Source: Aequitasia blattaphilus
GTDB lineage: Bacteria > Bacillota > Clostridia > Lachnospirales > Lachnospiraceae
Reading direction: 5' to 3'
DNA: 64,000 nt
Assembly (NCBI RefSeq): GCF_024721305.1
Contig: NZ_JAMXOD010000002.1
Coordinates: forward strand, 1-64,000
In this document: piece after piece, positions 14,599-15,882 of the stretch
How positions within the stretch are numbered: the stretch's first letter is position 1
Layout: each line of letters begins with the position of its first letter
Program-made: the position numbers and the translations under genes
The notes under the pieces: model-generated
What the model saw: the letters and a program-made list of their open reading frames with translations, nothing else
Databases searched by the model: none
Told to the model about the DNA's origin: nothing

Positions 14599-15882
14599 CT
14601 ATCGATCGTCTAATTCTTCTAGAATTTCTTCCCACGTAATTCCTTTTTCCACCATTAAAACATTCATATGATAGAGAAAATCTGCAATTTCATACTTTAT
14701 TTCCTCTGTATTAGGATTTTTGGAAGCAATTATAATTTCTGCCGCCTCTTCTCCAACCTTTTTTAATATCTTGTCTATACCCTTATCAAAAAGATAATTT
14801 GTGTAAGACCCTTCCTTTGGATTTTCTCGTCGATCCACAATTGTATCATAAAGATCCTTGAATACATTCAATGGATTCGACATATCATTTATCTCTCCCG
14901 CGACCGGCGTATAAAAACAAGTTGGATTTCCCGTATGACACGCTGCTCCTAACTGTTCCACCTTTGCTAACAACGTATCCTTATCACAATCCACCTGAAT
15001 GGATTTCAAATACTGTGTATGGCCACTGGTTTCTCCTTTGATCCATAATTGCTTACGGCTACGGCTATAATAAGTCATTTTTCCTGTCTTAATAGTATAA
15101 TTAAAAGCCTCCTCATTCATATACGCCATCATCAGAACCTCTTCTGTCTTATAATTCTGGACAATGACTGGAATAAGACCTTGGTCATTTAACTTCATTT
15201 CAGAAAACTCTATTTCACTTTCAAATGTAGAAACAGGAATCCCTTTTTCAACACATTCTTCTTTTAAGGCAAAGAAATCCATTTCCTCGCGGCTAACAAA
15301 GGGGCCCGTTACACCTCTAACCTTTGTCTTTTCCAAAAGAGAAAGAATTTCTTCTTTATCGGTAGACTGGCTAAATACAACACTGCTCAGTTGAGAAACA
15401 TTTTTTACAGAATCCATATCCAGCTGGTGCATAATCAATAACTCTCTGGCATTTTTATTAATTGTATGCTGATGCTTAAACAACGCATCAAAATCATTGA
15501 TGGATACACTGATTTTTTCTTTACCAAAACGAGCTGCCGCCGCTTCAATCAACTGATCTGCATCAGGTTTTGAGATATTGATTACCACCTTGCTTGCACC
15601 TGCGTAAAGAACCTTTTTAACATCCTCAAGATTATTTATATTGCCTGCAATAAGCAAGGGGATTCTAGTTGCCTTTTTAATACGCTTAATAAAATGAAGC
15701 ACCTCATCTTTATCTTCCTCATGCCGGGAGAGATCAAAAATAAGTAATTCATCCGCTCCTTTTTCATTGTAGCTCCTTACTAATTCCAATACATTTCCCG
15801 AAATGATCGTGTCATCATCAAACCAATTTACTGCTTTTTTATGTTTAAGAAATATACAGGGTATAATTCGTTTTAAACTCAT
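14599..15882 (-). CDS. hisIE: HisIE with an N-terminal degenerate HisF-like domain
   Basis: The 427-residue protein combines three parts. Residues 1 to about 215 resemble the HisF TIM barrel (KRIIPC start, [18 protein letters not shown]). Residues about 225-325 are HisI phosphoribosyl-AMP cyclohydrolase (DCDKD metal motif at 298-302, CHTGNPTCF). Residues about 338-427 are HisE phosphoribosyl-ATP diphosphatase ([16 protein letters not shown] helix, EIADFLYH). HisI and HisE look intact and catalyse steps 2 and 3 of histidine synthesis. In the barrel both HisF catalytic aspartates appear lost: position 11 is Phe, and the position matching Asp130 is Asn129. The phosphate-binding GGGI reads AGNI. 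It is the last gene of the operon. Confidence 0.92.

Follow-up and report, generated by a model that had tools for sequence, protein, structure and literature searches.

The closest described systems are fusions among histidine biosynthesis genes. In the accessible parts of the respective papers, hisIE fusions are covered (PMC1963479), hisF-hisI-hisE is named among fused genes (PMC9413887), and HisA/F-HisIE proteins are reported in four archaeal assemblies (PMC11237513); an accessible table of the histidine pathway shows HisE in brackets (PMC9026213). An operon of Roseburia with hisEI is treated as carrying a hisE/I fusion, with no mention of a barrel in the accessible part of the text (PMC7478625). 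A second line of work concerns partial barrels. Domain atrophy, as described in the accessible part of PMC4432964, denotes the loss of core strands, in TIM barrels among other folds, with the partial domain persisting. For isolated half-barrels of HisF, the accessible part of PMC7284861 describes an autonomous N-terminal half as well as half-barrels that fold as homodimers. No description of a decayed HisF-HisIE fusion was found in the titles, openings of abstracts and text passages covered by the literature search.

The protein considered here (P0001, 427 aa) is encoded at positions 14599..15882 of the window, that is, the whole stretch of 64,000 nucleotides from Aequitasia blattaphilus (Lachnospiraceae) that was analysed. 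The gene is located on the minus strand, as are all features of the histidine operon given below. The protein consists of a (beta-alpha)8 barrel of HisF type (15220..15882, residues 1 to about 221), a HisI domain (phosphoribosyl-AMP cyclohydrolase; 14893..15207, residues 226-330) and a HisE domain (phosphoribosyl-ATP pyrophosphohydrolase; 14602..14865, residues 340-427). We denote the degenerate HisF barrel N-terminal of HisI-HisE as F* and the complete fusion as F*IE. An earlier interpretation made from the letters alone, here called the sequence-only reading, had described the HisI and HisE parts as intact, and the profiles agree: the former matches PF01502 with 124 bits and NF000768 with 164.9 bits (over cut-off), the latter matches PF01503 as well as TIGR03188 (105.4 bits, over cut-off), by which the domain looks complete, and the profile for bifunctional HisIE (NF002747) yields 269 bits at a cut-off of 187. 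Residues C299, C315 and C322, which we take to be the functional cysteines of HisI, as well as E379, E382 and D401, presumably the functional acidic residues of HisE, are invariant in 53 aligned proteins including that of the window.

The fusion gene is the last in a row hisZ-G-D-B-F*IE, consisting of hisZ (18384..19619, TIGR00443), hisG (17792..18433, 213 aa, TIGR00070), hisD (16479..17780, TIGR00069) and hisB (15895..16482, NF002111), each over the respective cut-off. No bacterial hisA adjoins the fusion in the window. The sequence-only reading had noted that hisH, hisF and hisA are missing from this operon and had suggested a profile search for an intact HisF and HisA elsewhere. Both are present in the genome: an intact hisH-hisF pair and a hisA of eukaryotic type (L002, 1450-2217, minus strand; TIGR02129, 317 bits) are located away from the operon of the window. 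Adjacent to the operon, the segments 12301-13648 (minus strand) and 13832-14572 (plus strand) comprise a gene resembling the ATPase of a YydI-like ABC exporter (207 bits, below the cut-off of 240), accompanied by a membrane-like protein, as judged by eye, beside a gene with a weak match to response regulators.

The barrel scores 84 bits against TIGR00735 (HisF), far below the cut-off of 294.55, and HisF is nevertheless clearly its best match; an unrelated TIM barrel is rejected for this reason. In a tree with HisF and HisA (using 25 of 90 F*), F* forms one clade on a long branch that lies between both and beside HisF, with the grouping of HisA being weak (66/7). Descent from HisA is rejected, as the HisF branch is nearer. 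Asp11 and Asp130 of HisF, which we take to be the catalytic residues, correspond to Phe11 (15850..15852) and Asn129 (15496..15498) in the window protein, with no Asp placed at 11 or 130 by the alignments, and the GGGI phosphate loop reads AGNI (residues 79-82, 15637..15648). The absence of both aspartates and the altered loop, as noted in the sequence-only reading, are thereby confirmed, and its assignment as a HisF-type pseudo-enzyme barrel is supported.

The same losses are found across the family. We compared 90 F* domains, extracted from the 115 fusions counted below, with 30 HisF proteins. Asp11 is present in 30/30 HisF versus 2/90 F*, Asp130 in 30/30 versus 24/90, and both are kept in 2/90 F*. 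No residue aligns to Asp176 in 74/90 F*. The third glycine of the GGG loop is kept in 4/90, and the second, C-terminal SGG loop is not conserved; both loops of HisF are presumably phosphate-binding. Glu46, Asp98 and Lys99, which we assume to be HisH-side or ammonia-gate residues, are invariant in 30/30 HisF and drift in F* (retained in 44/90, 4/90 and 29/90, respectively). As read from these alignments, the HisF active site is lost in F*, and an active cyclase is rejected because the catalytic positions are not kept. Three proteins (L043, L054 and L063) are less decayed and HisF-like over their whole length.

Fusions with F* occur in 115 of 150 genomes of Lachnospiraceae; similar fusions in this family are mentioned in the sequence-only reading. 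HisE is found in 113 of the 115 (exceptions G043 and G023) and, over cut-off, in 118 of the 150, namely the 113 together with G005, G028, G030, G075 and G109. Since the latter five have HisE without F*, HisE does not in general require F*. HisF over cut-off is present in 132/150 genomes. Among the 115 genomes with F*, 108 have it; the seven exceptions are G006, G016, G037, G044, G113, G123 and G146, three of which are less than 90% complete. The genomes G037, G044, G113 and G123 are 90-99% complete and harbor F*IE without a HisF over cut-off; in these the histidine pathway may be decaying. In a collection of named sequences, at least 594 stretches match the patch pattern described below; at least 543 of them are relatives, 80 of which were kept, with names including Dorea, Mediterraneibacter, Coprococcus comes, Blautia, Roseburia and Faecalicatena. 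The row hisZ-G-D-B-F*IE is found in 72 of these 80 loci and parts of it in the other 8. Among 146 genomes of the order and 196 of the class, the fusion-type matches listed (E up to 2e-37) all belong to the same family, and the listed matches from other families resemble ordinary HisF or HisA in their scores and frames; low-scoring matches in these samples can hide reduced forms, such as that of G152, a genome from another family of the order whose F*IE is reduced to 362 aa. Confinement of the fusion to one family is rejected on the basis of this protein. Two HisF paralogues (L249 in G013 and L250 in G092; 217 and 213 bits to hisF) form a separate clade in the HisF/HisA tree; as a guess, they are perhaps of the AglZ/WbuZ kind.

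Most of F* varies strongly, with a mean column entropy of 2.39 over the 90 domains versus 1.02 for HisI and 0.80 for HisE. The near-fixed positions are E86, D87, K89, K90, Y93, G95, F119 and G120, as well as R84, E114, R118 and K207. With the exception of K207, these map to helices alpha3 (residues 85-93) and alpha4 (residues 108-119) of the AlphaFold monomer model or to the ends of these helices. As the pTM of this model is 0.59, the placement of the domains is uncertain, and the model cannot place HisE against F*. In the window protein the patch consists of an alpha3 part (residues 84-95, 15598..15633) with E86, D87, K89, K90, Y93 and G95, and an alpha4 part (residues 114-120, 15523..15543) with R118, F119 and G120; N84 and A114 stand where the family has R84 and E114. 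HisF is conserved at D87, G95, F119 and G120 too. It varies at the position of K90 and has Arg in 25/30 proteins where F* has Y93; the constraint at these two positions is therefore new in F*. Among 101 F* domains with HisE, K89 and F119 are kept in 101/101, Y93 in 100/101, K90 in 97/101 (with two Arg in addition) and R or K84 in 94/101. This set combines 89 of the 90 extracted domains with eleven others and with the F* part of L289; the one remaining extracted domain (L097) lacks HisE and was placed in the HisE-less group as L252. Four F*IE proteins outside the set (L259, L261, L263 and L264) likewise keep K89, Y93 and F119, as judged by eye.

A different pattern is found in F*-HisI proteins that lack HisE. 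G043 encodes such a protein of 325 aa. Among 11 genomes of its genus, G483 and G485 also encode F*-HisI without HisE, six encode F*IE with the patch, G488 encodes HisI alone and G482 (70% complete) encodes neither. Three more HisE-less proteins (G515, G600 and G660) were chosen by their short open frames among the matches listed in a search of 397 genomes, with the patch then still unseen. These six F*-HisI genomes, five of which are at least 96% complete and one of which (G483) is 83% complete, yielded no HisE at E<=1. K89, Y93 and F119 are each kept in 0/6, with Tyr replacing F119 throughout, K90 in 0/6 (one Arg), and R or K84 in 0/6. Only part of the patch goes without HisE, since D87 and G120 are kept in 6/6 and E114 (4/6), E86 (2/6) and R118 (2/6) in some. 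Of 12 other conserved barrel positions, picked by hand for comparison, nine (44, 50, 52, 75, 80, 94, 95, 190 and 207) are kept in 6/6 and three (42, 55 and 58) are partly changed, with G42 being Asp in three proteins. In a tree built without the patch columns, the loss of HisE corresponds to three separate changes; a second tree agrees on three losses (bootstrap 3-3 in both trees). The branches leading to the HisE-less sequences are long, with 0.97 in the case of the G043 group, and therefore some of the patch change may reflect general speed of evolution.

The dN/dS of F* is 0.10-0.16 in the four of seven pairs with a computable barrel value. For F* without HisE it is 0.10-0.16 in three pairs among three related genomes, with the G515-G660 pair being saturated. 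Because purifying selection persists after the loss of HisE, F* must also act apart from HisE, perhaps in a further role with HisI. In G023 (L102), the patch is present, the frame ends at the contig end within HisI, and HisE was not found in this genome, which is 60% complete and is treated as undecided with respect to HisE.

We note that HisI without a HisE homologue is found in 17 of the 150 genomes, namely G002, G008, G010, G014, G017, G026, G041, G043, G053, G058, G062, G071, G078, G086, G102, G112 and G118; G088, with a weaker HisI match, is excluded from this count. Inspection by eye of the same-strand frames after HisE-less hisI in five loci gave no candidate for a replacement of HisE. 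G008 (L098, 195-1295) and G017 (L099, 99-1244) encode a HisA with intact Asp motifs fused to HisI, and HisE was not found in these two genomes.

In seven proteins (L088, L091, L093, L094, L095, L101 and L272) the N-terminal part is reduced to 133-179 residues. The reduced forms read closely keep beta1 to alpha4, corresponding to residues 1-128 of the window protein (15499..15882), and most of the second half is gone. The alpha3 motif is whole in six of the seven. L272, from another family of the order, keeps E86, K89, Y93, R118, F119 and G120, and R84, D87, K90 and E114 are not kept. In the second of the two trees used for the loss of HisE, the reduced forms are interspersed with full-length F*, and shrinkage amounts to about five events; six were computed, but L289 (184 aa) is not a half-barrel and was excluded. 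L093, L095 and L101 group together in this tree, but L093 is placed elsewhere in the first tree.

One face of F* is strictly kept while HisE is present, and F* is therefore probably a holder for HisE. We assign a probability of roughly 0.6 to the reading that F* is a pseudo-HisF retained to dock HisE; the scaffold role considered in the sequence-only reading fits these findings. The fused barrel would be retained as a structural module whose outer alpha3/alpha4 face packs on HisE, either of the same chain or of the partner chain in a dimer, thereby positioning or stabilising it. With HisE lost, this face would be freed from constraint; with the rest of the barrel lost, it would be kept. The physical contact of F* and HisE and its structural purpose are probable. 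Kinship to HisF, loss of the site, conservation of the patch, its linkage to HisE in three losses, its survival in reduced forms and the dispensability of the remaining barrel are read from sequence comparison. That one enzyme of histidine synthesis has here become an obligate and non-catalytic component of another we consider rather doubtful. Trp417 of HisE, found in 99/101 F*IE versus 2/10 proteins elsewhere, may mark a contact to F*, and lineage alone could explain it.

An analysis of coupled positions (181 sequences, effective number about 115) ranks 94-413, 122-376 and 66-369 as top barrel-HisE pairs, with R118-E393 lower. The alpha3/alpha4 region is involved in 26 of the 100 highest-ranked barrel-HisE pairs versus 14 of the 100 highest-ranked barrel-HisI pairs, with 13% expected; other settings give 24-29 versus 13-15. 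As the best real score (0.390) is barely above that of the best of 12 shuffles (0.374) and barrel-HisE pairs make up only 27 of the 200 highest-ranked pairs overall, coupling favours an internal contact of barrel and HisE weakly.

The same patch could instead complete the active site of HisE, with Lys89, Lys90, Tyr93 and Arg118 reaching PR-ATP or its phosphates and F* acting as a catalytic subunit. The basic and aromatic residues are indeed near-invariant only with HisE and are kept in half-barrel forms, but HisE looks complete by TIGR03188 and is found in other bacteria that have no F*, and the conservation of E86 and D87, roughly on a par with that of the lysines, rather resembles a salt-bridge network; we regard this role as unlikely. 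The patch might also dock HisG/HisZ, the makers of PR-ATP, handing PR-ATP to HisE, such that the dock would decay without HisE. The linkage of the patch to HisE and the common gene row in the named loci agree with such a dock, and the covariation of barrel and HisE argues, weakly, for an internal contact instead; we hold it to be improbable. There is little to recommend F* as an allosteric sensor of histidine, AMP or an intermediate that acts on HisE via the patch by means of what is left of the N-terminal phosphate site: D50, S52 and G80 are still common (75/90, 75/90 and 79/90), but N102 is present in only 60/90 and absent from half-barrels such as L095, and the C-terminal phosphate loop is not conserved. 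A passive relic, retained only since deletion would break the reading frame, would agree with the fast drift of most of the barrel and its repeated shrinkage, but is very improbable given a near-invariant patch that, among the proteins examined, is lost only with HisE, and given the low dN/dS; judged by these patterns of conservation, F* is not an inert relic. The sequence-only reading also suggested that F* serves the true HisF/HisH pair as a partner or scaffold. Kinship to HisF agrees with this suggestion, but it hardly deserves belief, as the HisH-side residues drift and the constraint follows HisE even though HisF is over cut-off in 14/14 genomes checked, with or without HisE.

The genomic context suggests how the docking module for HisE may have originated. 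A canonical row hisB-H-A-F-I(E) is found in G028, G109 and G005, and from hisH onward in G075. In 13 F* genomes examined, a bacterial hisA directly precedes F*-HisI(E), and F* therefore occupies the expected place of hisF. Other families of Clostridia harbor intact HisF-HisI fusions (G330, G421 and G443) and an intact HisF-HisI-HisE fusion (G432), the HisF part of the latter being the sole HisF over cut-off in its genome. Asp11 and Asp130 are present in the intact fusions L277, L278, L280 and L282. Within the tree with HisF and HisA, the clade of the less decayed L043, L054 and L063 splits first among the 25 F*. On our best reading, an in-frame fusion would have joined HisIE to the HisF that normally precedes it in the operon (hisA-hisF-hisIE); the cyclase step would be performed by a separate hisH-hisF pair, and the fused copy would have lost catalysis. 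F* would thus descend from an active fusion, HisF-HisI-HisE, such as survives in other Clostridia. Two further architectures were observed: a HisA-HisF fusion in another family of Clostridia (L276) and, in G547 (L289, 904-2826, minus strand), a HisA-F*-HisI-HisE protein of 641 aa in one frame with the patch intact.

The family represents a replicated case of a pathway enzyme becoming a pseudo-enzyme, in which intact, less decayed, fully decayed and half-barrel forms coexist today and three natural losses of HisE act like knock-outs that reveal which face matters. The evolution of pseudo-enzymes and half-TIM-barrels thereby becomes testable in natural proteins. The annotation of an enzyme common in Lachnospiraceae, a family with gut bacteria, is refined, and a hole at the HisE step (PR-ATP pyrophosphohydrolase) is exposed in other members of the family.

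Compared to known systems, F* differs from HisF (TIGR00735) in its score far below cut-off, in the absence of the catalytic Asp, the second phosphate loop and the HisH-side residues, in its fusion to HisIE, and in being conserved on a different face. With bifunctional HisIE (NF002747) the window protein shares intact HisI and HisE domains, and its best Foldseek matches are 6J22/6J2L and 7BGM/7BGN, which we take to be Shigella HisIE and MtHISN2, respectively; these chains of 185-213 residues have no barrel, whereas the window protein has one. The active HisF-HisI(-HisE) and HisA/F-HisIE fusions have the same domain order as F*-HisI-HisE, but the former, in the four intact cases named above, keep both aspartates that F* has lost. 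Reduced relatives combine a partial domain with a whole-fold ancestor and are thus cases of domain atrophy; the window protein, with its full barrel, is not. In the accessible part of PMC4432964, HisA/HisF serve only as a half-barrel model, whereas here shrinkage is repeated within the HisF lineage. Finally, the isolated half-barrels of HisF in the accessible part of PMC7284861 were expressed apart in the laboratory, whereas the half-barrels of F* are natural and fused to HisIE.
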